From Crambe crambe (Eukaryota; Porifera; Demospongiae; Poecilosclerida; Crambeidae), in the NCBI GenBank assembly GCA_963924555.1, contig OZ004587.1:1116001-1180000 (forward strand): a DNA stretch of 64,000 bases, in the 5' to 3' direction. The position numbers were made by a program, and so were the translations under genes. The notes under the pieces are model-generated. The model was not told the DNA's origin. It searched no databases and worked only from the letters and a program-made list of their open reading frames with translations. Numbering within the stretch: the first letter of the stretch is position 1; each line of letters begins with the position of its first letter. Shown piece after piece: positions 5,184 to 36,500 of this stretch.

Positions 5184-8082
5184 ATGAAAGTAAGTTTAAG
5201 GGGATTCAATAAAGCTGTACAGTGAGTATGTAATTTTAGAGTGATGTGGTTAGCTGACATGCTGTCGGGTAAAGGATCGTCATGGCTGTGCGCACAGCTG
5301 CTCAGATCTGTGCCAGCTATATAATTATATAGCTAAAAGCATGGCAGTATGCATACCAACAACACAAGGTAGAGTGTGGGAAATATGGACATAGTCTCTA
5401 GATAAGGACTTCATAATATTTGCCAGCCAGACCTATACCACTTCAAGTTGGTCAGGTTTATAATCAAAACGTGCTGTTATTTAAGTGCTTAATTGGAAGG
5501 ATCAGGGTTTTATAGTTATTTGAAATTGTTATATTCAGATAGCAGTTGAAGGGTGTGCTCATGGAGAGCTGGACAGGATCTACGAAGTGCTGGGAAAAGC
5601 TGAGGAGAAGGAAAACATCAAGATTGACCTGCTGATCTGCTGCGGGGATTTTCAGGTAGGCACCAGTGCTGGCAAGGGGTAGACACTAGTCAGTCACTGG
5701 ATAATGTCACCGATGTTCTAGCTAAAGTGTGTGGAATCATATTATGACATTTTCTGGTACCAACAATTTCACTGTAGCTGCCGGAATAGGTAGGACATGT
5801 GGAATGGCCTGGGTGGTCCATCACAGAGTATTCTGATTAGATATGGTTCTTTGGTACCAACAAATTTCACTGTAGCTGCCGGAAAATAGGTAGGACATGT
5901 GGAATGGCTACCTAGGGTGGTCCATCGCAGAGTATTTTGATTAGACATGTACCATCACTAGCACTATGACATCAGTGTTGGCACGACATCAGTATTGCCA
6001 CTAATCTGACCACCCTATATTATTAAAGCCACTTTGCCAAGCTTATCACTCCAGCTAACTTACCTTCTTAAAGAGACCACCTAAATCATTGCATAGGTGA
6101 CAGGTTTCACCGTAATAATTATCATGTATAAGTACTGTGCAGGGTTCTCCCCAGTGAAACTGATCAGAGCGGTGCTTGAATACCCCACATTATTAAAGGA
6201 TTTTGATATTCTTGTGGCCATTGAAATACATTGTTTAAAGAAAAATGGGCCCCATCAGAGTGGTGTTGCACCTCTCTAGCACCTTTTGGGGACTGTAGAT
6301 GCAGTGAAAATTAGCTGAGTTGATCCCTCTTAGAGGTCACAATTGACCACTCTCCCTGCACAAACACCTCAACTGTATTTAGTTGAACATTAAACTTGTC
6401 CACACCACCTATAACCTATAACAACTATACACTCAGTCTGACTCTGAATATCGACGGCTGACGAAGAGTGGTGTAGAGAGGGTGCATTATTTACCTTTTC
6501 CACGGTAACGGCAGCCATCTTGAGAGGCAAGTGCCCGTAAATTGACATAATATATTTTACCTCTCAAGATGGCTGCCATCACTATAGCAATTGTCATGGT
6601 GAGGTAGATAATGCACCCTCTCAATATCCTCATAGAGACGACTTATTTATTGAAGTTGTTATTACTTAGGCTGTTCGTGACAGTGGTGACCTGAACTGCA
6701 TGGCAGTGCCTGTGAAGTACCGACACATGCAGACCTTTTATAAATACTACAGTGGAGAGAAGAAGGCTCCCATCCTCACCATCTTCATCGGAGGAAATCA
6801 TGAAGCCTCTAATCACCTCTGGGAACTGTAAGTTGAGGTACACGTAAAGGGCATGCGCACTTTGTGGTTCAAAATGCATATAATATTAATGTTTGGGAAT
6901 TATAGATTATAATTTGGTTTGTTTTGCCATCTCAATGGAAGAAGAGCACAGCTTAGGCTTAGCTAGAAGAAACCAGCCCCATTTCTTAATGCAAAATGTG
7001 ATTATCTGTGATTATCATTATCTGTGGGTGCATGCAAGCTAGTTCATGCTATGAAGCGCCAAGGGAAGAACAACAAGGTACCGAAGGTAGCATAGATAGT
7101 TTAGTTCATATTTCCAAGTGTATAAGCTGGAAAGCCTACCTTAGTTTTTTGGTGATTTCAGTTGTTGGATTCTCCATGCACGAAGCTTTCATGTAACTTT
7201 AGTGCTATATTTGTAAGCTTTACCTAGTCTCACTGAACTATCTCTGCAGCAACTCATGCATATTGGGTTAAGGGTTGCCGATAAGTTTACATGTTAGTAT
7301 GTGACGTCTAATTATGTAGCTAGGGGGAAAATGGTGTTCTGAACTGCTGAGCAATGTAGTACAGTAGTCAGTACTAAGCTCTAGAGTCGTAAGAGATATT
7401 ACATTACATTACATTACACATTGTTTAAATTATTATTTTTAATTTTTCTACTTGGTATAATTATTATTATCTATATATTAATACGCTTGTACGTACATAC
7501 GTCTGTCCATCATGGTTCAAAGGTCAATTGGTAACGCACATGCATGTCACTCGTGGCAACATACAAATTCAAAGCAAGGAAAGAAGGGTGGATTGAGTCG
7601 CAGAGCGGCTCGATACGCCCAAGCACTTGAGTTTCTAGCTATGGACTTGACTCAACAATGAATCTTGACGCTCTAAGACGCTCTAAGAATCCAATGTTAC
7701 AAAGAGGTGAGAAAGAAAAAGAGAAATGCGGTTCAAAGGTCAATAGCTACTGTGACTGCAGCACGCCTAGCCAGGCTGCAGGTGAAGATAGAAACAAGCA
7801 ATGGGCCAGAGACTGCAGTAGGTCTAGGCTAGCGAAGAAAGAGGTGAGGGGGAGAAAGAAAGAAAAAGAGAAATACGGTTCAAAGGTCAATAGCTGCAGC
7901 AAGCCTAGCCAGGCTGGCAAAGATAGAAATGAGTGGCTAGTAAGCTGAAGAATGCAGGGCTGTAGCAAGCTAGCAAGCAAGAGCACAGCATAGGCTTAGC
8001 TAGAAGAAACCAGCCCCAATTGCATGCAATTTCAAATGCAAAGTACAGATTTCCTGTGGGTGCAGGCTAGTTATTATTATTA

Positions 8083-8131
<49 letters not shown>

Positions 8132-11100
8132 TTACATTTATTATTATTCAGATATTGTTTAAGTTTTAGTGCCATATGGTATTTTGTTTGAAGCCCATTT
8201 TCTGATGGGTACCAGTACCTAATGGTGCTTACAACACAGGAAAGATGCCGTTTTCTATCCAGTGATGGTTCATATTTCCAGAGTGCATACAGGTGATATG
8301 CTGCCCTGCGGTAAACATCCTCTTTATCATACTCATTCTCGTCTGTGTGGCGAAGTACTATAGCTATGGTGAGGACGTAATAATCCAAGCAGATGCTATG
8401 AAAGTGATAATCTTCAGTTATGCAGTCTTCTTTGTTACAGCAGACGTTATCATATTTATTGTCCATGTGCTTACAATGCTTGCATATGCACCAGTTAGGT
8501 TTAGGTCTTGAATCTTTATCATCTTTCAAAATTTCTCGAGCTAGAGGTACCCCTCCTCTTTCCAATTGAAGTTTAATTGTCAGCTGGTTAATATTCTGCT
8601 CATCCATTGGATCTGTGTCTGAATCACATTCACTGACATTAGTGAGCAGGTGTAATGCTGAATTCTGAGGTAATAGTATGCCACCTCTTTTAAACAATAG
8701 CTTATTCATTAACTTCTTAATTTCTTCCTGTGATTGAGTATTCATAAATTTAGTATGAGTCCTTGCTCGTTAAATTTGATGCTTGGCCTGCTTTCATTCT
8801 AGCTTTGTCCGGATAGCTATGCCCCTGCTACAACATCTGGCTTTGATAATGCTATTGATGGTAATTTTAGATAGGAATCTCTTTGCATGATTATTTATCG
8901 TGTTAGGGAAGTCCCTTATAATCAGTGTAACTAACAATTTTTAAAAAGTTAGTTTTGTTTGTTTTTTGCTCAAAGGAGACACAAAAAGAATAACTATAGC
9001 TACAGTTTAGAGTAAAAAAATATTTGAATTCATGTATTATAATAAGCATTTGTGCCATATTTAATACTTAAGAGGTACTCTACGTACATCTGTTGAATAT
9101 CATATTAAATGCCAGCCAATGAGTGTCCAAGATATTAACTGAGTTATGGATATACCACCTCTATGGGACAGATCTTTAATTTTACTTGTCAGCCTCTGGA
9201 TGTCATCATTAGTCAATATTTTCATGTATTTCTGGTAAAATTCAAGGGTCATTCATTTTCATACATTATATTTATTAGTGGCTGCTAACACTTAGTATGA
9301 GCATAGCTATCTAAATGAGCAAGAATAAGTACTGTATGTTAGCACATGGTAGAATATATATGGTAGGAGTAAAGTTTTGTTCAGGTATTACATTCCTGTA
9401 TATAGCTGAGTAGCTATACAGCTATTATTCTCTCCTAGATCCTAGGCCTCTCCACATAAAACTTCAAAACCACATACCTGATATAAACATCAACATCAAT
9501 ACTATGAGTATTAATAAGATCTTCTCGATCTTCTCCATAGTTTTTTTTATTGACATTAGCTAGTTTATAGATATTTGCCACATCATTCTTGTGTTGTTGA
9601 TGGTGTTGCCTTATTTGGCTAATGTTTATTTTTGACGTCACTGTAATACTGTTAATGATAATCATGAATTTGATTTTAAATTTTGAATATTTTGAATTGA
9701 ATTTTTGTATTCATCAGAGAGAGATAAGTAGTTCTCTCTATGTAAGGATGATGCAACCTACTCCATTAAAACAATATACTGAAATATCTCAATGAAATCA
9801 GCTTAAACTGCTCATGCATGCTATCTACTATGCATCTTCTTATTCTTATTAACATGAGAATATGTATACCAATGTTTGGGGATCATGCTATAGCCTGCCT
9901 GCTGTACCTGCAGGGACAAGAGGCATCTTCTATCCAATGGCACGTTGTTCGCCCCTCCAGGTCCAAATATAGGTAGCTACATATTTGCTACATCATTCCC
10001 ATGTTATTAGTGGTGTACATTGCCTTATTTGGCTAGTGCACTGTGTATTATTCTTGTCATCATTGTACTGTGGCTATATTCAGTGGGAGCTAGGATACAC
10101 TTTTATTCAAATTTGAATAATGTTCTTGAGTATGTCTATAATAATAGTATATTCATCAGAGAGACTGGTGTCTCTCTCTATGTAAGGATGCTAATATTAA
10201 AACAATATTAAAATGAAGCTTTAATATTTCTAATGAATCTTGACTCAAACCGCTCTCATCTAAGTTAGTGTCTAGTAGGCTGGATAATCATTCATAGTAG
10301 CTTTTGTTAAGTCTAAGTGGGAGAACTAGTTTGTATTAGTCTATATGCGGCATGCGCAACTGTCTGTGTCATCCCTACATAGAGAGAGTGCTCTCTCTGA
10401 TTAATGCAGGGGTTCTCCCCTCTGATTATTTGTTAGATTATGCTGTCGATGGTTTCTATGTTTTAGTATGATTCCTGTAATACCCTGTAAATCTGCATAT
10501 TATTATTTATTTTTCCGCTGGTTGAGTGCTCCACGATAATAAAATTAGTATTATCAATGGACTTCTGGTCTAGGTTGTGGAAAGACTGTTGCTATTACAA
10601 ATTAATAATTGAAATACTATATAGTTAGTTTGTATAGTAAATTAACAATTACATAAATTGTTATTTACTTTGTTTGAAGCCTTCATATTCGCCATTTTCT
10701 GCTGGGTACCAGTACCTAATGGTGCTTACAACACAGGAAGGATGCCGTCTTCTTTTATTCTTTCCTAATGGTCCATATTTCCAGAGTGCATATAATTGAT
10801 ATGCTGCCCTGCGGTAAACTCTGTTTTCATCCTTTTCATCTTTATCCTCTCTCTGTGTGTGGTGAAGTACTATGACATAATAATCCAAGCAGATGCTATG
10901 AAAGTGATAATCTTCAGTTATGCAGTCTTCTTTGTCACAGCAGACGTTATCATCTTTATTGTCCATGTGCTTACAATGCTGACATATGCACCAGCTAGGT
11001 TTAGGTCTTGAATCTCTATCGTCTTTCAAAATTTCTCGAGCTAGAGGCACCCCTCCTCTTTCCAGTAGAAGTTTAGTTGTAATATTATGCTCATCCATTG

Positions 11101-14100
11101 GATCTGTGTCTGAATCACATTCACTGACATTAGTGAGCAGGTGTAATGCTGAATTCTGAGGTAATAGTATGCCACCTCTTTTAAACAATAGCTTATTCAT
11201 TAACTTCTTTATTTCTTCCTGTGATTGAGTATTCATAAATTCCTGTGAAAAGAATGGATATTAAATATTTTCCCTGAAAATCATAAAGATTACCTGTATT
11301 TGCTCAACTTTATTATCAATCCTCTGCATCAATTCTGTTTTCTCTCCTGAGTCACTGTCAACCTTTAATATGTACAATGGTATGTGAAATTTGCTCAGTA
11401 ATTGTAATTTTATAAGGCAAATTCACATCTTTTGTTGAAATTAATCTTAACTTTATGTAAGTATATCTTTGTATGACTTTCGTCCCTTTTTAGTTAAAAA
11501 TTACCTTTATTTTCTTAATATTTTGAACTTTTTTATCCAGTATAAGAAGTATCTCTGTATTTTTCTTGAACTGTGTAATAGAGTGTAGTATTATTTATTA
11601 TAACTGCTAGAAAAATTACATACCAAGTAGATAAAGTAACGTAAGTAATGTTTTCTGCTCTTACAGGCACTCCAGAGTTGTATTCTTCCCCATCTCAGTA
11701 CTTATTACTTACTATGCCTTGCTCAGATAGTTCAGTAGGCCATTTTCTTTTCTCTATGTAGCATACATAGGTACATAGAAATACATGTGTGATGTTAATG
11801 TTTAGAGCTTAGAATCAACTAAGCAAGTTAGTCAGCCATGAAAATTTCGTGCATGGAGAATCCAACAGCAGAGGTAGGCTTTCCAGCTTAATTATACACT
11901 TCGAAATATAAGCTATCTACACGACCTTTGATACTTTGTTGCTCTTCTCTGGGCTTTGGTTGGTGCTTGGTACCATGGTAGTGCCAGGAGCTATGTAAGA
12001 AACTAGCTTCTGTGTGACTCTAGTTTGAAATTCTGCCTCTTGCAGAAATAATGTTCATGTTGTAAAACTTAAACACCTTTTTACTTGGTATGCAATTGCC
12101 CTTGAAAAAAAGGAACAACAAATAATAAATAAATAAATAAACAAACAAACAAACAAACAAACAAATAAAATAAAACAAAGCAAATTACTCTACCTCTGTT
12201 ATTAAATGCCAGCCAACGAGCGTCCAAGAAATTATCATATATTAACTGAGCTATTGATATGCGGGACAGATCTTTAATTTTACTTGTCAGCCTCTGGATG
12301 TCATCATTAGTCAATTATTTCTGAGTAAAATTAAAAGGTCATTCATTTGCATACATTGTGGCTACTTTAACCGAAGCCAGTAGGTAGCCACATGAAGACG
12401 TATGTACTGATGACTGCCAGAACTGGCTTGAGCTGTTCCTCTTAGGGAAAGGTGTGATGACCCCCTAGGGCATATGAAATCACTTCTAATGCTACTATTA
12501 AATATGCTAATCCTTTAGTCCTGTGGGACAGCCCTTCTTTGATTTTCACATAGGGATTGTTACATGGTTGAAAGAATAGCCTCTACAGTGTACCTTTTCA
12601 TCAAAGTATAGGTACAGTATTCCTGATAGAGTGAGTACATAGGTCCAGATCAGAGTGGTGAATAATGGACATGCTGTAAAGATGAGTATATAGATCTAGT
12701 AACGTTATAGTATTTACTATTTTTTCACACTTCATAACTAACTAACAGCCATGGCCTTCAAGTAAGGTCTATAGTATAACCATCATATGTACGTAGAGCA
12801 TGATACGTAGGAATTGGCTTTTTTAATATGAGACTAGCTGTCATTTTGCAGGGAACTATTATGACTTACAGTTTGTTAGTATGAGCATAGCTATCTAAAT
12901 GAGCAAGAATATAGTACTGTATGTTAGCACATGGTAGAATATATATGGTAGGAGTAAAGTTTTGGTCAGATATTACATTGTCCTCTCCTAGATGTTAGGC
13001 CTCTCTACATAACCACATACCTGATATATACATCAACATCAATACTATGGGTATGGCTATGAGTACGAGTATGGCTATCTTCTTTATCTTCTCCATGGTT
13101 TTTTTATTGACATTAGCTCGTTTATAGCTATTTGCCACGTCATTCTTGTGTCGTTGATGGTGTTGCCTTATTTGGCTAATTCTCGACGTCACTGTAATGT
13201 TGTTTGCCTGTTAGTGACAATCATGAATTTGATTTTAAATTTTGAATAGAGTATTCTAATAGTGAGAGAGACAAGTAGTTCCTCCATGTAAGGATGATGC
13301 AACCTACTTCATGAAAACAATACAATGTACATGTATGCTGAAATATCTCTGATGAATTTTAATGAAGTCAGCTTAAACTGCTCATGCGTGCTATCTACTA
13401 AGCATCTTCTTATTCTTGTTAACATGAGAATCACAGAAATCAGTATGTATAGCAATATTTGGGGATCATGCTATAGCCTGCCTACCATACCTGGGAACAA
13501 GAGTGAGACATCTTTTATCCATTATGATTCAATGGCATATTGTTCGCCCCTCCAGGTCCAAGTATAGGTACTAGGTAGCTACATCATTCCCATGTTATTA
13601 GTGGTGTACATTGCCTTATTTGGCTAGTGCACTGTGTATTATTCTTGTCATCATCTATATTCAGTGGGATTTGAAAAATATATTCAAATATTGATTTGAA
13701 TAATATTTTTTTGAGTATGCCTATAATAATAGTATTCATCAGAGAGACTGGTATCTGTAACAAGAATGTGTGAGGCAGAGCTGGCAAAAGACTGTAGCTA
13801 GCTAGCTAGCAATCAAAGATCATGTGGTGGTGGGCATGATATGAAGCAATGACATAATAATAGTAACGTTTGACACTATGATACAGTATCTCTCTCTATG
13901 TAAGGATGCTATTAAAACAATATTAAAATAAAGCTTTAATATTTTCTAATGAATCTTGACTCAAACCGCTCATCTGAGTTAGTGTGTATAATGTTATAAT
14001 GTTAGACACTTCTTGGAGCCTCTGTAACTTACACAAAAATATACAATGATTATGAATGATATATGTGCAGTAGGATACATAAATTATGTGCATGTAATGT

Positions 14101-17100
14101 GTGTATGTGATGATTGCAGGAATGTGATGAATGTATAGCATGAATATAGTTATCTTTGCAATATCTTGTAATCATAATGCAGTGATCTTGGAATCCTATA
14201 GAACTATATGAGTCCTTGCTTGATTTTCTATGTCAGTATCTAACTAGAGGAGATCACAACGCCTAGCTTTCTCTTTCTTATCCGGATGCCCTGATTCGAC
14301 ATCTGGCTGTTCATTGATGCTATCATGATGAGTGCTGTCATATACAGCCTTCTTTTTAGTGTTGATATCCAGACTATGACATGCTACCTCGTTCCCCCTG
14401 GTATCCTCGTCATGGTTGCCACTAGGAGTTGACTTCTCCCTGGTTCCCTTATAAAAGCTGTCATTAGAGGCTGTCTTCTCCCTGGTGCTGATATCAAGGC
14501 TGTCACTTGAGGCTATCTTCTCCCTGGTAACAAGGTTATCAGTTGAAGCTTGCTTCTCCCTGATACTTCTAGGAACTTGCGTGACCTTATCAAGGTTCTC
14601 ATCGTGTGAGGCTTGCTTCTCTCTGGTTGTCTTGTCAATGCTGTAACTTGAATCTTGCATCCTGGTGCTATTATCAAGGCTATCACTTGAAGAATCCTGC
14701 TCCATGGAGCTGTTATCAAAGCTGTCATTAGAAACGTGTATATCCTTGGAATCAGAGTGACTATCATCAAGGATGCCATTTAAAGCTTCCCTCTCCATGG
14801 TGCTGTTATTGCTTGAAATTTGCTTCTCCTTGGTTCCATCCTTAGCACCATGGTGTGATGGTTCTTTCTCCTTGGTGTGGTTATCATCAGTGTTATTTTG
14901 AACTTGATTCTCCTTGGTGCCAGCCTCAGGACTATTGTGCACAACTTGCTTCTCCTTGGCGCTGTGTTCAAGGCTGTCGTTTGAAGCTTGTTTCTCTTCA
15001 GTGCTGTTATCAAAACTGCAATTTGAAGCTTGTATTCCACTCTCGGAACTCTGGATGGTGACTTTCTCCTCACTGACATCAAGTGAAGCATTTTTCTTGC
15101 ACAATGTGCTATAAATGTGACTAGTACTTTCGTCAGACTTGAGTACACATATTTTATCACATGATGCAGTTTGGCTTATATCAAGTGAAGTGCCGTTCTT
15201 GCACAGAGTGCTAGATGCTGCAGACTGGAGTGTGCTGATTTTATCACATGATGCTGTTTGGCTGATATTGAGTGAAGCTTTGGTCTTACACAGAGTGCTG
15301 TAAATGTGACTGGATGCTGTGGCTCCCTCATGCTCGAGTGCACTGGTTTTATCGAGTGATTCTGTTGGACTGACATTGAATGAGTGGCATAAGACATCAT
15401 GAAGTGGCGAAGCATTATTGCTTCCTAGAGGATTGTATGCAGGGATGGGTGGGGTTTCTTCCGACTTAGTGAGTGGATCAAGTGAAGTGGTGGGACTGAC
15501 GTTAAGTGAGTGATACAAGACGTCTTCGACTGACACATCAGTCTCGGCCAGAGGGTTATAAGCAGGAATGGGTGGTGGAGCTTCTTCAGACTCTAGGAGA
15601 GTTGGTTCTTCATTGGGTGGGGCCTGCCGTGGTTGAAAGGGGAAGTGGTCCTTGTAGACTGTGAGTAAGCCCAGCAGCTTCTTTTGCTGACTCTTTCTGA
15701 TTCCACTACTGATCAATTTCCTGCAGGAAAAATGTTCAGTAATACATTGATTTTGTGTTTACTTGATCCCTTGAACTACTTATGTGTAACTTCCTCAATT
15801 CTAACAAAAACCAGTGGATAATCATGGATGTGAAATTGTGTTACGAAAGAGTGAATATAGCAAATGATCAAGGGTATACTCAACCCTCACTGTTGGTGAT
15901 ACTTAGGGTAAATTTAGTAGAAAATAAGAATATTTTTAAAATTTAGTTATATGTAGCTAACGATGATTATTGTAGTCGTAAGAAACCTGACTTTTAACTC
16001 TGGAACTGAGACAGCAAGCTTCAATGCATATGTGACAGTCGAGGGTAGAAATCAAACTTTATTCACGTTTCTACTTTTAAAAAGAAAAGTTCAAAAGGCA
16101 GAAAATTTTATTGTAAAGAATAAGTCATGACAAAAGGAAACTTTGACTAAAACGTGAATAAAGTTTGATTTCTACCCTCGACTGTCACATAATATTTTGA
16201 TACAAAACCAAAACTTTTTCTCGTCCCTTTTCCCTACGCACTGTCATAGGGACAGCTTGGCATGGCATGGTAAGGGACAGCTATAGAGGACATAAACAAG
16301 GCTACAGAATAATATCCAGCTAGAGTGACTAAGAGTTCGAGTAGTAATACAGTCAGAGAGCTGCACATGGAAGTTCGATATTCATAGAGTATACTTGATG
16401 GTTGCACTAAACTTTCGTGTACCTTTTATTTTTCTTGCGGCAAGTTAGTATCCATCCTATGACCACACCCATTAGTGCCACTCCCATTAATCCGGTGACA
16501 GCTCCAAGTGCTCCCCTTAACCTCCTGCACTTTGCACCCTCTTCTCTTAGTGAATCTGTTGCAAAGGGTGCAGGCATTTGTGACATCATTAGAAGTGTTT
16601 GTGACACTTTTGGAGGAAGCATTGACTCTGATGAAGGTTTATTTGACTGGGTATTCGATTGTAATGAGGGTGATCTTGACTCTACAAAGGACACGGTATG
16701 AAATGATTTTGATTGTAAAGAGGGTGCTCTTGACTCTGCATCAGACATGGTTTGAGAGGTTGAGGTGGATTCTGGCAATAGAAGTTGAGTGAAGGGTTCG
16801 AGTGGCGTAGGTTGAATGGGTTTGATTGACGTAACTTGAATGGTCGTGGTAGGTTCCATTGGAAATTGTGATGGGTGGTCCATGCATGGCATGATATCGT
16901 CTTTTGGTGTCCAGGATGTATTGCCTACAGAAGGTATCAGCATTATTATGAGTGGGACACCTCAATCATATTCATGCAGGCTTGTACATATGTATGTTAG
17001 TCACAGAGTTACTAGGGAAATGCAAGCATTGTGGGGTGAGCGTGCATGCTTGGCTTACCCAAGGTTGACACACACTCCAAAGTTATGAGGTATGCATATG

Positions 17101-19015
17101 AAAAGTTTTTTCCCCCCTCTCATTCAATTCCCTAGTGTGGAGCTTGGTTTGCTCACCCCAATAAGTATAACAAGTTCAGTGTTTCTCCCACTAAATTGAG
17201 TCACTATGTGTGAACTATAATGCACCATGCAGTTACTTAGATGAGCCTACAATATCAACTATTAATGATATGAGCTATGAAATGGGAGGGAATGGCACAC
17301 CCTCTTTTTTGGGAGAAAATACTATTGTATAATCCTCTCGCACATATGCAGCAGCCCCATATATCTTTTCCCTTCCTTTTCTATTTTTCTCCTCATGCTT
17401 CACGTACCGCATATGATTCCTATTTCAGATATGCATGAGTTTTTCTTCTTTAAGAAGGCGCAATCTGCTAGCTTGCTCTTCTTTCCGGTGCAGTTGAATT
17501 GAGTCAGACGAATCGATGAATTCACCTTTCCAAAGCAGGCATCTGAGCAGTATCCAATCTCTGTACAACATTAAAAGCATCTGAGCAGTACCCAACCTCT
17601 GTACAATGTTAAATGCATTATTAGAATCTGAGCAGTATTCAACCTCTGTACAATGTTAAATGCATTATTAGAATCTGAGCAGTATTCAACCTCTGTACAA
17701 TGTTAAATGCATTATTAGTATCCAATCTCTGTTTAATGCATTATTAGCATCTGAGCAGTATCCAATCTCTGCAGCTACAATGTTAAATGCATTATCATAT
17801 ATAAGCTTTGGAGGTATGTGTTATAGAGAACATGCAATCTGATATATAGGCTTCCTGTACAATTTGAAAAAATCTTGATCCCTTGATCATAATATCTGCT
17901 CTAACTTCCACAATAATTGTTTTTGACCAAATTCACATCATAAACACCAACAGAGAGCTGATCACCCAGCTATTTTTTGAAATTTGTTTCAAGAGATAGC
18001 AATCATAATGAAAGATCAAGTGGCTAGACCTTAAATTATACCATGTAGTTCCTTGATAGTTCCTTGATAATTTTATACCCAATGCTACTTCTAAGATAAA
18101 TTTAATCATCGCATTTCTGTGAATGATTCAGTATGATAGTATTATGCTGCATGTACTATGATAGGATATTCTGTTTAGTTACCTGATGTTGAAAGATTGA
18201 GTTCTCTGCAAGTGACCCTAGTCTCTTCTATCCCCCAAAATTTCTGGCATACAGTCCCCCAGACATCGTTGAAACACAGCTGAATTGCTCCAGCAACAAA
18301 CCTGCCCTCTGTTGCATTCACCAATCTGACACTGCCATTGCTACATGGAGACTCGTCATCAAATAGATCACCAGATTCTGCCATAACTAGCTGGACTGAT
18401 ATCAAACCTGTTAGCAATACAATTATGATATCCATTGTAATAAACTTTTAAACTATCGTCAGTCAAAATGATCACAATATATAGTCAGGATTTTGAAATG
18501 TCATCGTGAGTTTTATACTCTAACTCTTAAAGATGTTGTGTTTGTGTGGTGTGGCAATTAAGAGTGCACATTCCAGCTAAATAAGTCTTGCTTTTAGTCC
18601 ATAGCTACAGGTGATATTTGTGCCCTCACATTAACTACTATCATGTATCTATATCTGATGGGGCAATTAGTGCCTTAGCTACACCTGCTGTATGTATGTA
18701 TCATAATAGGTACTATAGATGCATGTGTTGATGGTGTTGGTCTATAGCTAATAAGAAACTTCATTGAACCTACGTAATTGCTTTCCAAGAACTACTTAGC
18801 TACCTTGGTGGTTCTTCATACTTTGAAGCATTGAGGATCACTTTGAAGGAAGAAGACTTGATTGATTGTACTCTAAGTCAATAGGTTTATAGAATATCTA
18901 TGCATTGATCTATACTTATGAACAGAAAACCACAAAACCACACATGAGCTCACTTGCATGATATCCTAAGAAGAAGCACCTTCCATATCTTGTTGGTGTT
19001 GTCTTTTTTCTTTTC

Positions 19016-19088
<73 letters not shown>

Positions 19089-22000
19089 CTAGGCCTTGTT
19101 TCTGAGCAATGGTCATCCCTACATTTTTTTCCCTTTCATTTCACGGAAATGTTTTTTCCTTAGCAATAATATTACAGGAACAAGTGGATACACACAGTGA
19201 CATCATGTTAGCTATACATACATGACTACAGTGCACTCTATTGTGTACACATACATACACATTATGTATAACAATGTATACAAGTATGTAAACATGCTAG
19301 GTTGTTTCACATGCTAGGTTGTAAGTGTGGTATTACAATGTTCATAGCTACATATACATGTAAATGTGCATAATACATTCATGTGCATGTAAATAAATAA
19401 GTATAATATTATATAATGTATTATTGCAAGTACACATGATCTAGTGAATTTCTCTCTGTGTCATATCTGGTAGCTATGTATCCTTCCCGAATTTTTCCCT
19501 CCTCCTCCTCCTCCTCCTCCACTTCCTCTTGGCCCTCCGTCTACTTCTCTTTCTTTTTTTCCCCCTTCTATTTCATCTCCATTTCTTGCTCTCTCTGTCT
19601 CAAACTGTGGAAGATCGATTACATCATCTTCTTTTCTGGTGTGACTCCCCGCCACATTCAGTTTCTCTTTCATAATATTGTCGTCAATGCTTGCACTCTT
19701 GTGTGAGACTTTTATCTCTGTGGTAGTACTGCTATCAACTGTGTGAGGCACAACTTCATTCTCCTTTACTCTGCTGCTGCCAAGGCTGTCATCAGTAACT
19801 TGAGGAGCAGTCCTGCCAACGAGATTGTAATACGTGACTCCATTGCTTGTTTTGCTTTCTTCTCCTCCACTTCCTCTTCTGTCACCGATAGAGTTCCAGG
19901 ACCTCTCAGCAAGCGGGAGATCATAAATTGCTGTATCCTCTTCCATATTTCCATGCCCCGTTGTTGCGTCTGATTGTTTTTCTTTATTGTCCTTGTTGTC
20001 ATCAGATTCGAGTGTGTGATAAAAAATCTCATTCTCTGACATGGTGTTTCCATCAAGTCCACTTGTCAAAGGTTCCTTCAAAGTCTGCAATTCTCTGGTG
20101 CTGATATCAAGTCTGTTATAGACGATTTCGTTCTCAGACCTGGTATTTCCGCAACGACTCTCTGTTGAAGCCTTTTTTTCTTTTGTGCTATTATTGAGTC
20201 TGTGGTAGAGGTCTTCATCCTCCTCTGTGGTCTCATCTTTGGACACCACTGTCTCCCATGGATCACTCCTGCTAGCAAGATTGTAATATTTGGCTCCATT
20301 TTCTATTTCTCCTTCGTTTCCTCTTCCTTCGTTGGTGGAAATCCATGACCTATCAGCATGTGGGAGGTCGTAGATTACAGCATCTTCTTTATTCCCTGCG
20401 GCGTCCGGGATCGTGTCTCCATCATTCTTGTGATGATCAAAGTTAGTGCAGTCATATAAGGGTTCTGTATCATCCATGATATTGCTTTCAAGTGTATGAT
20501 AGAATACTTCGTTATTTTTAAGAAGGCTGAGTTGATTTTCTTTGTTGCTAGAATCTTTTGGAATCTTTTTTTCTCTATCACTGATATCCAGTGCGTTATA
20601 CACGACATTGCTTCCTTCAAGGCTGACTCTCTGTTGATCTCTAGGTCTGTCGAGCCTGTGATACATGGCAGCAGCTTCACTTCCTCCTTTATCAGCAGGA
20701 TTGCTCACTACTTTAGGAAGATCATAAATTGCATCATTTTCTTCCTCGTATTCTTGTCTGACTATATCGGGCTCTGTCTTATCATTTTCGCTGTTCTCAT
20801 TAAAGTCGGTACATTCGTACAAACCTTCTTCCCTTGCATTAGAAGTAGAAGTATAAAGTGGAAGTTTGCTGTCCCTGATAGTACCTGGAAGACCACAGTA
20901 TGAGTTTCTGGTACTACCATCAGGTATATGATGTGGTGATAGTATGCTAGGAGATGGAGTATCTTTCTTCACAATGTTACAATCATTGGAAACTGTACAA
21001 CTTTCATTTGAGGCTGGCTGATCCCTATTGGGAGTGTGTGGTGTGCCTAAGAATTCTTTATCAGTGCAACTGTGACGGAGAGCTTTTTTCCCCTTAGGAC
21101 TGCTGTCAAAAGAACTTGTAGTTTCCTCTTTGATTCGAAGGGGACTGGATTTGTTACAATGCTGAGATGATTTGGGACTGACACTTAATGTCTTGTGACT
21201 AAGATCCGATTCCCCTTGGCTGATATCAGAATCTAATGTGTGATAGACCATAACCTCAAGTTGTGTAACATTTTTACACGGAGTACTGTGAGCAGATATC
21301 CCAACTGTTTCGATGAGTCCGTGCATTTGTGCACTATTCCTGCATGGAGTGTCGGAAGCAGGTGCTTCAATGGATTGCTGTGTATGATTCCTGCTTGGAG
21401 TGCCGTGCATGGGGGTTTCTTGAGGTCCGTTTTGTTTGCATTCTTCATGCATTGCTTGCTGCTGTTGTTCTAAGTGAAGTGGCATGCAATCTTCATAAAC
21501 GGAAACTTCAGTTCGAGGTTTATTTAGTTGGCTGTTGCTGATTTGAGTGACGATTGAATTCCTGCAGTGTTTATAATTGCAAACTTAAAATTCCACTATT
21601 GATTTTCAGTATGATTTCTGAGGGAATAGCTACAGTAAACACTGAAAGCATTGAATTTGATGTCACAAAGAGACTAAATGACGCTGTTTTTGTGTGAAAT
21701 GATATTGTTGATCAATGGGGAAAGCCCTTCAATTAAGTTGTGTATCATTATGAATTGTGTACAGTGGACATTTTTGGACTGGCAAACCCTTCAATGGCTT
21801 TTTGATTATGATCAGAGGCATGATCTTATTTTGGGGATTGAATACTTAAGATTATGGGGGCTGTTCGCTCATTGTGGGGCTCTCCCCATTTCAAGGAGTC
21901 TAGGTTTTATTTCTCTCACTCTCACTTTTTAGTTTTCTTCCAGCAAGTTAGTATCCATCCCAACACCACACCCACAAGTGCCACTCCCATCAGTCCAACG

Positions 22001-22313
22001 ATGCCTCCCAGTGCTCCCTCTAAATCATGACATGTAGAACCTTCTTCCCTTGGGTCTGTATTTGTAGGTGTATGTATGGAGGGAAAGAGTGATTTCATCT
22101 CAATCTGCGACTTCATGGAAGACATTTCTGCCTGTACTGAAGATGTTAAGTCTGTAGAGGGGAAAATGATACATTGGAATAGTAAGACCGACCATGGGAA
22201 TACCCAGAACTGGTCTTTTATATTGAGGTGGTCTCAGTTCTGAATTAAATTTTTGGAATTAATGTCTACAGTTTTCATTAATTACTTATTACAGCTTACT
22301 TTTTTATTTTGAG

Positions 22314-22402
<89 letters not shown>

Positions 22403-25400
22403 TTTTGGTGTTCAGTTACCTATTTTTGATTGAGTGTTAGTTGCTAGTCGCAGCTGAGACTGATCGCTTGTTGCCATCTGCAGCTGAATCTGAGTGTTTG
22501 TTGCCAGTGGCAGCTGAGACTGATCGCTTGTTGCCATCTGCAGCTGAGTCTGAATGTTTGTTGCCATTGGCAGCTGAGTCTGAGCATCAGATGGGCAGTT
22601 TTGGTTAGTACTTACTGTTGGTGACCAGGATGTGTTACCTGCAAAATATCATCGCACATTATGATAGCTGGATATATTATAATATACATTATAATAAGCT
22701 TATGATTTGAAAGGGAAAAAAATTATGCTAAAATAAAAAGGCTATGTAGTGTTAGTCTGTACTTTTACCTATAACAGTTTCTGTGAACAAACATTAGCCT
22801 TCCATAATAATCCCTACATCATTGCCTCCCACCAAGCTGCTTTAATTGTTCATGTCAGTATAAAAGTTCTGGTTGATTTAGGCAGTGATGTAGGGATTAT
22901 TATTGAAGGCCGATGTTTGTTCACAGAAACTGTTATAGGTTAAAGTACAGACTAATACTACATTACAATAAGCTTGTAGTTCTTCTCTCCCATATATCTA
23001 TTGTTCTCATGCACCCAAGTTTCTCTGATACATTCTTTTGTGCTTTTATACTTGCCCCAAAAACTTTCATTTTCCATGCAGGGTTCTCCCCAGTGAAACT
23101 GATCGGAGCAGGTGCTTGAATACCACATTAAAGGATTTTGATATGCTTGTGGTTATTAAAATTCATTGTTTTAATCCACATGAAAGAAAAATGGGCCCCA
23201 TCAGAGTGACTCTCTAATATCCTTCGGGGCGAACCCTTCATGGTACATAGCTATTAACATACCACATATCACTCCTGCTTCTGTTATACATGAACCATTT
23301 TTTATTGCCATGGAACAGTTTTCCAGATTCTGTTCCATCCCCGTACAGTTGAATTGAGTGAAGCGAATGGAAGAATTCAATTTTCCGAAACAGGCATCTG
23401 AGCAGTATCCAACCTCTGCATGTGCATGGAGTGATTTCAAGAGTTTATGTGCATAGTGCTTCTAAACATGCCAATCATTAGCTAGTTAATAATAACGAGG
23501 ATTATAATAGTCTGCCATAGGCCGTTTACCAGGTCAAAAGGTCAAATGTTTGAGCAAGATTTGCTTTGGTCTGACGTCATATTGGCGTAATACATCCCAT
23601 TGCACTTAGGAGTGTATCTATTCAAGGCCACCCTGTAATGAGACCACCTCTCTATAGACCACTCCACCATGTCCCAACAGCACCTATCCCAGCTACAGTG
23701 AAACCTTGTCTAACCTGTGAGACCTCCTCTCTATTATAGATAGATAAATACATAGGGCCAGCTGGTTTGTTGCATGTATGCTTTTCTTTTGGTTCTATAA
23801 GTATGTATGTATGTATCACTCTCAATACTTCTTTATACCTGATGTTGATAGACCAAGTTCCCTACAGACAACTTTAGCATCATTGTATCCCCAGTCTTTT
23901 TGACACACAGTCCCCCAGACATCGTTGAAACACATCTGCATTGCACCAGCAACAAACCTGCCCTCGATCGTATTCACCAGTCTGATGCTGCCATGGGTAC
24001 ATAATGTCTCATTATCAAGTTGATCATCAGGTTCTGCCATAACAAACTGAAGAGACACCATACTTAGTAGCGCCATGAAAGCCATAACTTCCATCATTTT
24101 AAACTTGTTATTTTCGAAAATGCCAGCAACCTGATTGCAATTTTTAGCTTCTGTGTACTGCATGTGGCTATGTTATCCTATTTGTGTAGCTATATGTAAG
24201 TATATGTTGATATGTTTATTCAACACATAGCTATTGCAGCTAAAATAATATAAAATTGAACTGAAAGAAATCTTTATGCACGTGAAAAGAGTATAGAACT
24301 GGCTCCAAAGCACATGCAGTAACTTGAGAAACTGGTTTACTGGTTTTATTTATTTATCTAATAACGAGTTCTGTTGGCTACTGAGCATGTGCAATATGAC
24401 ACACAACACTGAGCATGTGCAATGATACAATAATAATAATAATGAAGTCATGAAGTAAAGGGTCATTACTGAATATTAATTAAGTGACTGTATGTATATC
24501 ATGGTAATTCTATGTAAGGTATTGCAACCTACTACATAAGTGCTAAATATAGATCCATCCTTTCCATTGTTCCATGCAGTGGTTTTGGTGGCTGGGTAGC
24601 TCCCAACATTTACTACCTTGGCAATGCTGGCGTGGTGAAGTATGGTGGTCTCAGGATAGCTGGACTGTCTGGCATATACAAGGAACATGACTACATTAAG
24701 AGTGAGTCCCATGGCTTTGTGTGTCTGTCAGACTGGTCAAAGGAGGAGGTTCAGATCCCCCTCATTAAAAGGCTATAATTTGTTTTCCATAGTGGAAAAT
24801 AATGTATGCTTGTATGTGCAATATTTAAAATTTCATTTGTGTATTTCTGGATTTGTGTTGTGTTTTTAATTTTGCTCATTCTTATTATTTGTTTGTTTGT
24901 TTGTTTGTTTGTTTGTTTGTTTAGATCATTTTGAAAGACCACCGTATGATCAGTCAACGATTCGAAGCACATATCATGTCAGGTCATGTGATGTCTTCAG
25001 AATGAAGCAAGTAAGTTAAGTAGCTATTGTAGACATCAATAATTGCAAAGGATCACCACCAACATCTTCATCTTGACATCATCCCTTCCCATAAATTATT
25101 ATTATGAATGAAGCAAGTGGATTATCATGATGTTCTAATAAAAAGCATGCATCCATTATATTATACCATTTTTATTGTTTTTTGTTTGTTTGTTTTGTTT
25201 GTTTTGCTTGTTTGTTTAGTTGAGTGGTAAGTTTGACATCATGCTTTCCCATGACTGGCCTCTGGGCATATATGACTATGGAGACAGAAATCTACTCATA
25301 AAACTCAAACCTCACTTTGCAGAAGATGTAAGACCATTATAGCTACTGGGAGGGGGGGGGGGGGGGGGAGGGGGGGGCGGGGGTAGGGAAATGCCCATTA

Positions 25401-28400
25401 ATGTAGGTTATATATGTATTATTAATGTTCATGTACTATATACAATATAAAATTATTATTTCATATTTTGTTAAATGGACCTAAATTATTTACTACGAAA
25501 TTATGAGTTGTTGATACAAAGTTCATTTAGCATCGAAGTATTTTTATTGAGAGCCTGCAGGCAGTAAACTTGCATGTGAAAGCACTACTAAGAATCATGA
25601 TTGACTTGCATATTAATCGACTTGCTTGCAGATGGGCATGAACTGCTTGGGAAATCCTCCAGCAATGGAACTGTTACAACTCCATCGACCATCATTCTGG
25701 TTCTCTGCTCACTTGCATGTGAAATTCGCGGCTGTTTACTACCACACATACCCAACCACGCCCCATAATCACGCCCTGCCACAAACAACAACTACGGCCC
25801 AAACTGAAGTGCCACCAACAAAACCTGAAATCATGAAAGATGAGTCCGAGAATAAAGAGCTTGAAACGGATACAAATACTGCTAAAGAACTTGGAACCGA
25901 AACGGACTCTGTTAAAGAACCTGGAACCAGTATGGATGCTGATATAGAGTCTGGAACCAATGTGGACACTGACAAGGAACCAGGAAGCAGTACAGAAACT
26001 GATAAAGAGCCTGGAACCAGTATGGTAACTGATAAAGAGCCTGGAACCAGTATGGAAACTGATAAAGAGCCTGGAACCAGTATGGAAACAGATAAAGAGC
26101 CTGGATCCAGTATGGAAACTGATAAAACAGCAGAATCAGATGTTAAAAGTTCACCTGACAATATCAATTCTGGAGAGAGTAACATCAAGGGTCAAAGTAC
26201 AGAGGTGAGTGCTCAGACTTCAATTGAGGATCCTCCGATCTTAAGTGACTGTGCTGATGGCTACATGAGTCTCGTTACACCATCTGGAGAAGATGTTTCA
26301 GCAGTTTCATCTGTCCAGAGCACTGAGACCCCCGTCTACACAAAGTTCTTGGCACTGGATAAACCTCTGCCGAGAAAGAGGTTTCTGCAGGTTCGAACGA
26401 TACAGCTAAAATACAAACTTTAGACCTGTATCCTCTGTACTGAAAAGTTATGAGCAAAATGATTTCAGATACTTGATGTTCAAGGCGAGGAGGAAAAGAC
26501 CCCTTACCAGCTGGAGTATGACAGTGAATGGCTGGCTGTTCTCAAATCCACAGAGTCTTTGATGAAGTATTCAGAAGGTGCTTGGATTCCTCCTCACTCT
26601 GGTGACAGGTACGTATATATACATTCATAACTGTACATATACTGCATGGACATGCATGACCACATGTACGAACATGTAGCTAGCTACATGTATGAATAAG
26701 TATACACTACATGCAATGCATCTACAGAGGGCATGTATATAAGGCAGAGGGTATGACTTATTCAGAGCATATACAGAGGTCATATTATATAGAGGGCATA
26801 TACAGAGGTCATTGGCATAGAGGTTATATACAGAGAGCATACAGAGGGCATATTCAGAGGTCATATACAGAGAGCATAATTCAGAGGTCATAATACAGAG
26901 GGTATACAGGGATATTAGCTAGCTATAGTCAAAATTTATGGCTTTGCAAAATGTGTAATGGCATATATGCATGTCCAGTGTGTCGTATTATTAGGGTTCT
27001 ATCCAGCAGTGCCCATTTAGCTCTATAGGTCTACAAATTATATCAAAAATGGTGCCTGTCTGAACTAAAGCACCACTGACTGTAGAGCGCTACATATATG
27101 TATTGTGTATATGTTACAGGCAGAAGTTCACTCCAACTGAGGAAGAGTTGAAGGATGTAGAAGAGAGATTTGCAGTGGAAGGTTGCGGTGAACGTCTTGT
27201 CATCCCTGAGAACTTTGAAGTGACAGTACCAGCTTACGTCGATGGGACAGGAATAGACTACAATGCAGGTCTGCTAAAATAAGTGTTTATGCCATGGAAG
27301 TCTGCACCTAATGACAGAGCTCTCTGCCATTATTTTTGTTGTTGTTGTGGTAATTTGATTGTATACTAGAAAGCCAGTGACACGTGATAAGCTTGTGGTT
27401 TTTTTTACTTGGTTACTATGTTACCCCCATAAGATTAGATAACCAAAAGAAATTAATTGTTAAATACTGTATAAGCAGGTCTATTTAATCATAAGCACCC
27501 TATCTTGAGTTTAGCTATTGGCTGTTGTCTGCATGTGCACATCTCAGTGGATGGATCAAGTATTGGCAGTATTCCAGTCCAGTAATCCATCCCAGTATTC
27601 CATCCCAGTATTCCAGTCCAGTATTCCATCTCAGTATTCCAGTCCAGTATTCCATCCCAGTATTCCAGTCCAGTATTCCATCCCAGTATTCCATTCAACC
27701 ATTCTGAATCCTTTGGGCCACTATACCATGCAGAAGGGAAAGAGGACCAGTTTGGAATTTGCTATTCTAGTTAGTAAACTTCCTTCCCCCATCTATTGTT
27801 AAAGATGTGTGTGTAACTCAGGAAGTGATTTTTTAAGTGATACTAATAACTCCCTTTTCCATGAGACCACTTTTCTTAAGTACTATCAGTTCCTTCCCAT
27901 CCCATAAAAAAGAATTCCTGGTACCTCTTGGTGAGTCTAAGTTCTCTCTGATAATACTAATAACTCCACTTCCTTCCTGGTATCAAAATTAATTGTTGGT
28001 GATACTTCAGTCAAAGTAAAACATCCTATCACTGTAGTAAAAACAACCCATTTTTAGGTTATCTGAGTTGCAACTCAGATAACCTAAAAATGAGTTGTTT
28101 TTACACATTTGTTTTTATAGTGTAGGACACATCTTTCGAGGCAAAGCTATGAAAAGATAATTCATTTTTTGTTAGTATATATATCAGACAGAACTTAGAC
28201 TGCAGTGAGGATTACAACTCTTCTGTCATTTTCATTTTCAATTTAGCGGGTTCTTGTTTTAACAAATTTTAGTGACTTAGGCCTAAATCGCTAAAATTAG
28301 TATGCTGCACACAACTATTCTAAATCTGGTATATAGTCACATAGAAAATGGCCATGTATGAATGTTGTGAGAATTATTGTACATTTTACTCTTGTGTCAA

Positions 28401-33586: not shown

Positions 33587-36500
33587 TTAAATGTTAGTGC
33601 GTAAGTATTTAACCACCTCACTGTGACCCTTCTCTTGGGCCAACTGGAGTGGTGTCTGGTTAAACTTGTTCTTGACGGTTGGGGGGTAATGTTTGTTTTC
33701 AATGAAATGTTTTACTGTTGCTAGTTGACCATGTTTGGCTGCCCAATGAAGCGGAGTGTTCTTTTTCTTGGTTTGACACATCGAGATACCATCTTTATTT
33801 TGGGTGGTGAGGTATCGGACAGTGGAGAGGCATCCTTTCCGGACAGCCATGTGCAGAGGTGTGACATTATAGTCATCTTGACAGTTAGGGTCACAGCCAT
33901 GCTCCTCGATGAGGTTCTTGACAAGGTGGAGATGACCCTCTTGAGAAGCATCATGAAGTGGTTGTCTTCCTTGCCAGCCAGGAACATTAGGATTGCAATG
34001 CATGACATTTATTAAATAGTCCACTACATTGCTATGTCCATTACGGGCTGCATCATGAAGTGGTGTGTTACTTCTATTGTTTGAACTGAGTGGATCACAT
34101 TTTCTCTCTTCACATAAATACTTCACAGTAGATAAGTGACCTTGCTGTGCAGCAAGATGTAGGGGGGTGGCTTGATCGTTATCTCTACTGGCAGGGTCAC
34201 AGCCACACTCCATTATCAAGAACTTGACAATGGACAAGTGACCCTCCTGGGCAGCAGCAAAGAGAGGTCCTCTACCAGCCGCGCCACAAGGAAGGTTGGA
34301 GTCATATTGACATCCATTGATAAGAAACTTTACGATAGTGATGTGCCCTTCCAGAGCTGCTATGTGGACTGGAGTAGTCTCGCATGTTGTGGAGTCTGGA
34401 AATATATCCTGAATGTTCTTCATCAAATATTCCACAACTTCTAAATTTCCGCCATTACAGGCTCTATGTAGGGATGAGTAGCCTTTTTCATCCTGGTCGA
34501 GTGGATCCATTTGAAGATCGTCAACTAAGTACTTGACTAAAGAGAGATGCCCTGCTTCAGCTGCTTTGTGGAGAGGAGTAATTCCATGCCTATTTGAAGG
34601 TGTAATGTTGCATTGGATATGTTCGATTAGATATTTAAGCACTTCCAGTCTTCCATATTCGGCTGCAACATGTAGTATTGTATCACCATCCCTATCCTTG
34701 GTCAAGGGATTGAATCCCATTGCGATGAGACGCCTAACTTCTTTTAGGTTTCCTTCTTTGGCTGCATGGTGTAGTTCTTTATTGTGCTCTGTTGTGGTTT
34801 GTGCTGAGTCTCTCCCAATGTTGTCCTGTGATGTGAAGGAAGGAAATTTCACTACTATAATGATCATGATTCTGATTATCAATTTTCAGGCCCAGTTATG
34901 ATGTCTTGTTTGCATGACATGACTCTAGTTGGTTGATCAAACCCTTTAGGTTCTTATCAGAATAGTATAGTTTTGTATATAATTGGGTCATTCCATTTCA
35001 AATCAATGAAAGATAAAATGTGACCCCTCCAGATTTTTGTCAAATTTGGTGAGGTCAGAGTACTTATAGAGTATTGTAGCCACACCAAATTCAGCTCCAT
35101 CCATCAAGTATTCTTGTACTTGTGGTGGTTTGAAAGTCACCATTTTGACGACATTTTGGGTAAATTAGGTTTACTCTAATTCCTGCAACTTCAGTAATTT
35201 TTAACATGGAGATTTGGGTCTAGTACCATCTTGATGCTCTTTTGATGCTCTTTCAGATGATAAATAAATATAACAATTGTGAAACTGAAAGTGAATAATG
35301 GTGAGCTGTGACCTTTGACCTTTGTTATTTCAAAAAAAATGCTTCAATTTCAAATTTTTTTCAACTGTAATTTAATCTTATGGACTTGTTTAACCTCCTT
35401 AAGTTTCAATTTGGGATTGCTTTGGGATCATGAGATATCGGGCAAAAAGGTCCTTAAAATGGTGTCTTTCGTGTGATCTCTGATATCTAAAGACCTCATG
35501 ATAATATTTGGCTATCTCATTTTGAAGCTCTTTGAATGCTCTTTCAGGGATCTGGGAGTATCATGCAGTGTCATTTTGGAGATTAAGGGTTAATGTACAT
35601 CATTTGACCTTTAACCTTTGCTGTATAGAAGCATAGCAACCTACACTTGTTAGTTGCTCTTTAGTCCTTCAATAAACAATTCAATCACCTAACTCTTGAT
35701 TGCCAACAGCCATAACAATAATTGGTGATTTATTGTAAGTTTGAAGAATTGCATGTAGCTCATTACATAACAAGAAAGTACTTGGTGATTTGCTGTAAGC
35801 TCTAGCTAAATGAAGCAACTAGAAATTAGGTAGAATGAATATCTGAGGCATAGAGGTAACAAAGGCCAAAATTTTTTTGTAAGTATGGAATTCCAACAAA
35901 GGTCAAAGGTCACACATTGCACTTTAACCTTTTAGTTTTGAAATACTTGTGCAGGGTACCCCACCTATAAGAGCATTCAAAGAGCTTCAAAATGATACAA
36001 AAGTCACATCTATAGCATGACTACCAACAAAGTTAGGGGTCTTTAAATATAGAAAAGACATTTTTTTAAGGACATTTTCACCGATATCTCATGATCCCAA
36101 AGCAATCCCAAATTGAAACTTGGGGAAGTGAAACAAGTCCATGAGACTAAGTTACACTTGAAAAAATTTTGAAATTGAAGCAGCATTTTTTGATATAACA
36201 AAGGTCAAAGGGTCAGTCCACCATAATTTACTTTCAGTTTCATAATTGCTTTTATATTTATTCATCATCGGAAAGGGCATCAAAAGAGCTTCAAGATGGT
36301 ACTAGACTCGAATCTCCATGATAAAAATTACTGAAGTTGCAGGAAGTAAAGTAAACCTATTTTATCAAAAATGTCATCAAAATGATAACTTTCAAATTAC
36401 CACAAGTCCAAGAATACTTGATGGATGGAGCTGAAATTTGGTGTGGCTGCAATACTCTATAAGTACTCTGACCTCACCAAATTTTACAAAAATCTGAAGG

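Follow-up and report, generated by a model that had tools for sequence, protein, structure and literature searches.

How could an SRCR receptor of a sponge pass a signal from the cell surface inwards? We know of no inward signalling route for sponge SRCR receptors, and the question is raised by a locus, R1, in a stretch of 64,000 nucleotides from the demosponge Crambe crambe (the window; C10:1116001-1180000 in our contig numbering), in which an initial annotation had seen an SRCR receptor with a long array of phosphotyrosine-type motifs in its tail. Here we computed the gene structure and domain order of R1, the enrichment of its tyrosine motifs and their conservation between repeat modules, their recurrence in the neighbouring gene R2, and the SH2 reader genes of the genome (143 Mb, 119 contigs). 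From the sequence, we consider R1 to be probably a multi-site SH2 docking receptor resembling CD6 or LAT, whose output would be either activating or inhibitory.

R1 is predicted to encode a single-SRCR receptor with a long tail

R1 lies on the minus strand from 24097 to 19461, and its five exons join into a protein of 985 residues. All four introns are GT..AG, with phases 1, 1, 1 and 2, and the frame is open from the ATG at 24097 to the stop at 19463-19461. Thus, the five-exon model of the initial annotation (19461..24097) is borne out by clean splice sites, matching phases and an open frame. In window coordinates, the parts of the gene are:

23839..24097, minus strand: exon 1, with the ATG, a hydrophobic signal-like N-terminus and the first half of the SRCR domain (Pfam; donor GT directly after)
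23263..23415, minus strand: exon 2, second half of the SRCR domain (splicing, Pfam)
22420..22638, minus strand: exon 3, a stalk of 10-residue repeats, from a 30-nt DNA repeat (repeats, splicing)
21926..22151, minus strand: exon 4, membrane-proximal stalk, transmembrane helix and then lysines (splicing)
21943..22017, minus strand: transmembrane helix, residues 256-280 (hydropathy)
19461..21561, minus strand: exon 5, predicted cytoplasmic tail, some 700 codons in one uninterrupted frame that holds the array of tyrosine motifs (open frame, splicing, motif counts)

As had been proposed, there is one SRCR stretch, matched by Pfam family PF00530 at residues 50-137 (57.7 bits against a cut-off of 26.1), and, apart from the hydrophobic N-terminal stretch, a single Kyte-Doolittle helix at about residues 256-280. 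The SRCR part has 27 matches in the PDB, with CD163 chains on top and CD6 (E 6.5e-19), MARCO and DMBT1 also present. The tail, first estimated at about 700 residues with some 20 tyrosines, measures 705 residues (281-985) with 21 tyrosines; it has no Pfam domain, and its best sequence match in the PDB is no lower than E 0.76. When the tail exon alone was given to AlphaFold as a single sequence, the mean predicted local distance difference test score was 35 and no fold was predicted, as might be expected, weakly, for a flexible tail. Overall, R1 is probably the gene for a cell-surface receptor with its tail inside the cell.

Intron 2, upstream of exon 3, also carries an 84-nt inverted repeat (22744-22963), 93% complementary and with 52 nt between its arms, that resembles a small hairpin mobile element.

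Tyrosine motifs of the R1 tail are enriched

Every motif named at the outset is present in the tail: VYHTL, MYHRL, VYNAL, FYHTL (twice), LYHRL, VYNRL, YYNL (twice) and IYDLP (three times). Further tyrosines lie in YCGL, YECT/YDCT, YEEE, VYEDC and YTST. Ten tyrosines belong to YxxL (residues 392, 507, 586, 607, 640, 711, 738, 767, 800 and 863) and three to IYDLP (565, 683 and 832). Chance levels were taken from 20,000 composition shuffles of the tail, which ignore internal duplication. The ten YxxL compare with a shuffle mean of 1.2, and 0 of 20,000 shuffles reached that number; YDxP occurs three times against 0.08 expected, a count reached in two shuffles. Position by position, Leu is found at +3 of 10/20 tyrosines compared to 31/682 other residues (P 2e-8). 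Position -1 is hydrophobic for 14/21 tyrosines compared to 107/683 other residues (P 4e-7), and +1 is D, E, H or N for 16/21 (P 5e-6). Acidic residues are frequent upstream: one stands at -5 of 9/21 tyrosines (P 0.005), and they make up 34% of positions -6 to -2 of the 13 Yxx[LP] sites compared to 17% of the tail. In the opening third of the tail, where Tyr is scarce, TP(S/C)(R/K)N occurs three times, at residues 340, 357 and 379.

Because composition shuffles ignore duplication, two further tests were made, one on collapsed motif families and one on the paralogue R2. When the motif families of R1 and R2 were collapsed by hand so that each counted once, 8 of 18 were YxxL (binomial P 6e-6).

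The same positions are enriched in the paralogue R2

R2, which goes unmentioned in the finding of the initial annotation, is a tandem paralogue on the minus strand (18435-14244, 794 residues) with the exon plan of R1, except that a single exon covers what R1 has in exons 3 and 4:

18183..18435, minus strand: exon 1, start and first half of the SRCR domain
17408..17560, minus strand: exon 2, second half of the SRCR domain
16423..16924, minus strand: exon 3, stalk and transmembrane helix (helix at 16440-16514)
14244..15720, minus strand: exon 4, nearly all of the 497-residue tail

Aligned over 340 columns, the heads of R1 and R2 share 46% identity (E 9e-87), and the alignment ends about 37 residues into the tail. 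Compared tail to tail, about 37 membrane-proximal residues align (E 0.055), and the remaining matches have E 0.5 or worse. Since the tails barely align while the heads do, the two tails can be treated as near-independent replicates. The R2 tail has YNPL twice, YHSL and YSTL twice, followed by repeats of about 20 residues, delimited by eye, that are largely without Tyr. In this tail, Leu is found at +3 of 5/9 tyrosines compared to 30/485 other residues (P 1e-4), and a hydrophobic residue at -1 of 6/9 compared to 78/487 (P 1e-3). Both tails thus show one grammar, hydrophobic-Y-x-x-Leu. As far as sequence can carry it, this shared enrichment at -1 and +3 speaks most strongly against chance or drift and gives a docking tail its strongest support. 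Directly upstream of R2 exon 2 (17560-17780), several incomplete copies of its first part were seen by eye in tandem.

Relatives of the two genes were sought across the genome. The R1 tail found only itself and one match at E 1.7, and the R2 tail only itself and one match at E 0.24; these searches, in which the tails found only themselves below E 0.24, give no support for a wider genomic family of the R1-type tail. The SRCR family has at least 175 matches in the genome (150 of 2,833 candidates scored), and among the matches listed for the head (at least 154) the transmembrane segment is reached only by R1 and R2. Four or more YxxL occur in 4 of 490 open frames (at least 90 residues, 84 overlapping loci), all four being R1 or R2; because SRCR and SH2 loci span about 3.3 kb each, the scan may miss the tails of further SRCR genes. 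A control SRCR receptor with a transmembrane segment (L086) has a 330-residue tail with five Tyr and one YxxL. Viral contigs gave one pattern match and no relative.

Motif positions are conserved between modules of the R1 tail

The initial annotation described a module repeated about three times. The repetition is real, and its actual form is two long copies, one partial and one decayed:

20463..20825, minus strand: module 1, residues 532-652, with YECT, YEEE, IYDLP, MYHRL, VYNAL and FYHTL, without the YYNL stretch
19977..20462, minus strand: module 2, residues 653-814, with YDCT, IYDLP, YYNL, LYHRL, VYNRL and FYHTL
19680..19976, minus strand: partial module 3, residues 815-913, with IYDLP, YYNL and then VPHTV (Tyr lost)
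19524..19634, minus strand: decayed module 4, residues 929-965, with VI-DLP (Tyr lost)

Modules 1-2 and 2-3 were aligned with MAFFT and compared codon by codon. Synonymous differences are high, at 0.58-0.91 per site; the synonymous rate (dS) is saturated in the motif windows of modules 1-2 and about 1.1-1.2 for modules 2-3. The nonsynonymous rate (dN) is 0.20 in motif windows compared to 0.88 and 0.56 in spacers, the windows being centred on shared Tyr and thereby biased towards low values. Because such centring favours low dN, the flanks of other conserved residues were used as a control: flanks around Tyr are identical at 19/30 and 8/16 positions, control flanks at 23/99 and 49/151. Identity between modules is 6/7 at +1, 7/8 at +2 and 7/8 at +3, compared to 26-34% around other conserved residues; it is 5/7 at -1, and positions -2 (0/8) and +4 (2/8) are poorly kept. 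The Tyr itself is kept in 8/9 ungapped columns; YEEE of module 1, and YYNL of module 2 where aligned to module 1, face gaps and are left out of this count. The grammar of the R1 tail is a hydrophobic residue at -1 with Leu, or Pro in YDLP, at +3, both enriched and conserved.

The motifs fit Src/Abl-type kinases and SH2 domains better than ITAM labels

Sites with a hydrophobic -1 position and acidic residues upstream are those preferred by Src and Abl kinases, I/V-Y-x-x-P is the classical Abl substrate form, and SH2 domains read positions +1 to +3. The initial annotation had called the tail SH2-recruiting, and an SH2-docking tail is the reading best supported by the -1/+3 grammar and by R2; the vertebrate immunoreceptor labels attached to it are not supported. 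Paired YxxL had been likened to the immunoreceptor tyrosine-based activation motif (ITAM); no pair in the R1 tail has the spacing YxxL/I-x6-12-YxxL/I, and the ITAM reading is ruled out by successive YxxL tyrosines lying 21-115 residues apart. A hemITAM has acidic residues and then G directly preceding YxxL. This reading was rejected too, with G at -1 of 0/21 tyrosines and DEDLYHRL at Y738 as the nearest case. IYDLP is neither an inhibitory motif (ITIM; see below) nor an ITAM: it is a CRK-type YxxP motif, YxxP being the form bound by the CRK SH2 domain (PMC5043372).

Candidate SH2 readers are present in the genome

Family searches scored 150 of 166 candidates for SH2, 150 of 601 for PTP, 121 of 1,944 for kinase and 142 of 142 for SH3, and gave 135 SH2, at least 183 PTP, at least 160 kinase and 94 SH3 matches. 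Reader genes were assembled by joining domain matches by position. An SH2-SH2-PTP gene of SHP type lies on C18, its C-SH2 exon best matching SHP-2 chains (E 1e-57). SH2-SH3 copies of GRB2 type lie on C17; this call is based on single-stretch match rows and exon reading, and SHP-2 rows rank higher, mostly with two SH2 stretches summed. The order SH3x3-SH2 of NCK is found on C14, SH2-SH2-SH3 of PLC-gamma on C21 and, named by eye, SH3-SH2-kinase of SRC and ABL on C15 and C16. An SH2-ANK-SH2-kinase order on C14 is that of Shark; the 60 listed PDB matches of its kinase piece include neither Syk nor ZAP-70, so the label follows domain order alone.

Large clusters of SH2 matches, often paired, lie at C5:1.417-1.523 Mb, C9:1.487-1.614 Mb, C12:1.75-1.84 Mb and elsewhere, with no listed kinase or phosphatase matches alongside. 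Two loci (L079 and L082) read as tandem SH2 followed by Kelch-type repeats. Possibly, the clusters and the tandem-SH2-Kelch genes are lineage-specific phosphotyrosine readers. At C14:3697948-3702252 (minus strand), three SH2-like matches stand exactly 2058 nt apart in one open frame of 9513 residues.

A probable multi-site docking tail and the alternatives to it

On balance, R1 is likely a type I single-SRCR receptor whose tail would offer many phosphotyrosine docking sites. In the scheme that we infer, with R1 in this topology in vivo, a ligand would cluster the ectodomain, and Src- or Abl-type kinases would phosphorylate tail tyrosines with a hydrophobic residue at -1. The phosphorylated tail would then be bound by SH2 proteins, which fall into two or three groups according to site: pYxxL could be paired with tandem-SH2 proteins such as SHP or a Shark-type kinase, pYDLP sites with CRK/NCK-type adaptors, and pYYN sites with GRB2. 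The output, of either sign, would come from summing many sites, as in the tails of CD6 or LAT.

Several results weigh against this reading. The R1 enrichment tests are inflated by internal duplication, and neither YxxP as such (3 against 1.04 expected; 1,598/20,000 shuffles) nor YxN as such (2 against 1.5) is in excess in R1. In R2, the excess of D, E, H or N at +1 does not recur (4/9, P 0.2), an acidic residue stands at -5 of 0/9 tyrosines, and the tail has no YxxP. In R1, a YHTL-type copy has become VPHTV and a YDLP copy VI-DLP; some R2 repeats have Cys in place of Tyr, others have no Tyr, and the long C-terminal repeats are Tyr-poor. These Tyr-less copies in both tails indicate that single sites are dispensable. 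No CRK gene was identified in the genome family searches, and the sponge Amphimedon carries one (PMC5043372). As a single-sequence run, the AlphaFold prediction lends little weight to disorder.

A first alternative, decidedly unlikely on the sequence evidence, is that the YxxL sites serve in sorting, as YxxPhi signals that the AP-2 mu subunit binds unphosphorylated, so that the tail would drive scavenger-receptor uptake and not kinase signalling. YxxPhi occurs 11 times against 3.6 expected (3/20,000 shuffles reach 11) and YxR[LIMFV], a strong AP-2 form, three times against 0.17 (9/20,000); SRCR receptors are, moreover, often endocytic. For uptake, however, a single signal is enough, and 112 residues separate the membrane from the first YxxL. 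AP-2 has no strict need for particular residues at -1, +1 and +2, yet these are conserved as well, and YDLP (three sites) and Y(E/D)CT (two sites) are also repeated without being YxxPhi.

It is likewise improbable that the array grew neutrally, an ancestral Tyr-motif segment having been duplicated in a disordered tail so that motif number is functionless. The R1 tail is indeed made of internal duplications of which several copies are Tyr-less, and the R2 repeat array expanded mostly without Tyr; but the motif positions are far better kept than the spacers despite the high synonymous divergence, the barely aligning tails of R1 and R2 share the -1 and +3 enrichment, and the collapsed families retain their YxxL excess.

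Less probable again is an ITIM-type inhibitory receptor that would recruit SHP and dampen responses. The consensus of the immunoreceptor tyrosine-based inhibitory motif (ITIM) is [S/I/V/L]-x-Y-x-x-[L/I/V], with its defining residue at -2; the initial annotation was mistaken in taking (I/V/L)YxxL, with the hydrophobic residue at -1, for it. Half of the R1 YxxL sites (5/10) fit the consensus, compared to 0.79 expected (17/20,000 shuffles), and the genome has an SHP orthologue. Position -2, however, is not clearly enriched for [S/I/V/L] in R1 (7/21 tyrosines compared to 174/682 other residues, P 0.28; for I, L and V alone 6/21 compared to 98/682, P 0.075) or in R2 (3/9 compared to 149/486, P 0.56), and it is kept between modules in 0/8 cases; at -2, ITIM is thus not supported as the class of the array. 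The YDLP and YYNL sites would suggest, in addition, adaptors of activating pathways. Finally, a wrong gene model, in which the tail exon comes from another transcript or is untranslated, is very improbable: no AATAAA or ATTAAA occurs within 900 nt past the R1 stop, but there are some 700 stop-free codons behind a clean donor and acceptor with matching phases, R2 repeats the exon plan, and the first 37 tail residues are similar in both genes.

A multi-site docking tail could be part of something larger. It is possible, if rather unlikely, that the sponge has a receptor-intrinsic signalosome in the manner of LAT and CD6, in which the R1 and R2 tails would duplicate modules fast under a [hydrophobic]-Y-x-x-[L/P] grammar and be served by many SH2 readers, possibly including the tandem-SH2/Kelch proteins.

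Other genes and elements

The neighbouring open reading frame at 25617-26423 (plus strand) matches the DBR1 C-terminal domain (PF05011, E 4e-6, 27.6 bits against a cut-off of 26) and also has an acidic 10-residue repeat; a phospholipase reading of it was dropped in view of the DBR1 match. Repeated gene pieces on both strands, at 33587-37781 (minus), 50144-53523 (plus) and 60108-60965 (plus), contain ankyrin repeats in long arrays (33587 and 52198) together with a common segment, EALFPYLSKDMP..., whose copy at 36927 has no Pfam match. Two similar minus-strand open reading frames lie at 8080-8769 and 10661-11260, the former with a match (E 6e-15) to the family of the P2RX7 intracellular domain. 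Retroelement-like polyprotein frames were noted by eye in the list of open reading frames at 53974-56892 (plus). Elsewhere in the genome, the active-site pattern of silicatein, a demosponge enzyme, has eight matches, seven of them at C15:865-885 kb reading CG(A/S)SYAF; the backward pattern has one. Taken with the SRCR expansion, these matches speak for a demosponge as the likely source.

Relation to known receptors

R1 resembles CD5 and CD6 in its SRCR ectodomain, single transmembrane segment and long multi-Tyr tail, a likeness of layout that does not imply common descent of the tails. CD6 has three SRCR domains, whereas R1 has one SRCR stretch by Pfam and so falls outside the three-SRCR CD5/CD6 type; the R1 tail also differs in having its 21 Tyr in a repeated module, with YDLP sites in addition. 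WC1 differs in having up to 11 SRCR domains compared to one, and we know of no repeated Tyr module in it. Among invertebrates, tail motifs of YxxI/L/V type also occur in the recognition receptors Alr of Hydractinia and FcoR (fester co-receptors) of Botryllus; Alr ectodomains are immunoglobulin-based. BCAR1/Cas shares repeated YxxP sites with R1, in which, however, only three of 21 Tyr are YxxP and ten are YxxL; with no Pfam domain, the R1 tail has no SH3 or FAT domain, and R1 does not belong to that family.

In the literature, CD6 figures as a signalosome closely resembling LAT and PAG; its nine tail Tyr can dock SLP76, TSAD, GADS, GRB2 and SHP1 (PMC6305463). Bovine WC1 are multigene SRCR co-receptors with signalling tail Tyr and tail-length variants (PMC3511184). 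FcoR and Alr have ITIM/hemITAM tails, and a core Y-x-x-I/L/V motif of unknown function is also named; FcoR combines an immunoglobulin-based ectodomain with sushi domains, compared to SRCR in R1, and the available part of that paper describes no long repeated array (PMC12065747). BCAR1/p130Cas has an N-terminal SH3, YxxP motifs and a C-terminal FAT-like domain, and in Salpingoeca and Monosiga repeated YxxP stands within transmembrane proteins (PMC5043372). The ITIM-like Tyr motifs of amphioxus BbLcLRR were shown to require phosphorylation (PMC8211107); that protein differs from R1 in its leucine-rich-repeat ectodomain and its three sites. Known already, therefore, are Tyr-motif SRCR tails in vertebrates (CD5, CD6, WC1) and ITIM/hemITAM tails in Botryllus and Hydractinia (PMC12065747). 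In the titles and abstract openings of the papers listed, we found no sponge SRCR receptor with ITIM, ITAM or phosphotyrosine motifs, and the available part of PMC12065747 names no sponge ITIM/ITAM receptor. Amphimedon has 296 annotated SRCR genes (PMC10855680), in an article whose main text has no occurrence of 'tyrosine' or 'ITIM'.

Some sponge SRCR genes rise upon contact with microbes or microbial products (PMC7308585), and the R1 tail, with defined and repeated candidate sites for kinases and SH2 domains, offers a directly testable route by which an SRCR signal may pass inwards. ITIM/ITAM-type pathways are used by unrelated recognition receptors from cnidarians to mammals (PMC12065747); if R1 signals, it would add a sponge relative in kind. 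Were the possible signalosome of R1 and R2 real, immune-type receptor signalling by phosphotyrosine would extend as far as the sponge lineage, there with an ectodomain other than immunoglobulin.

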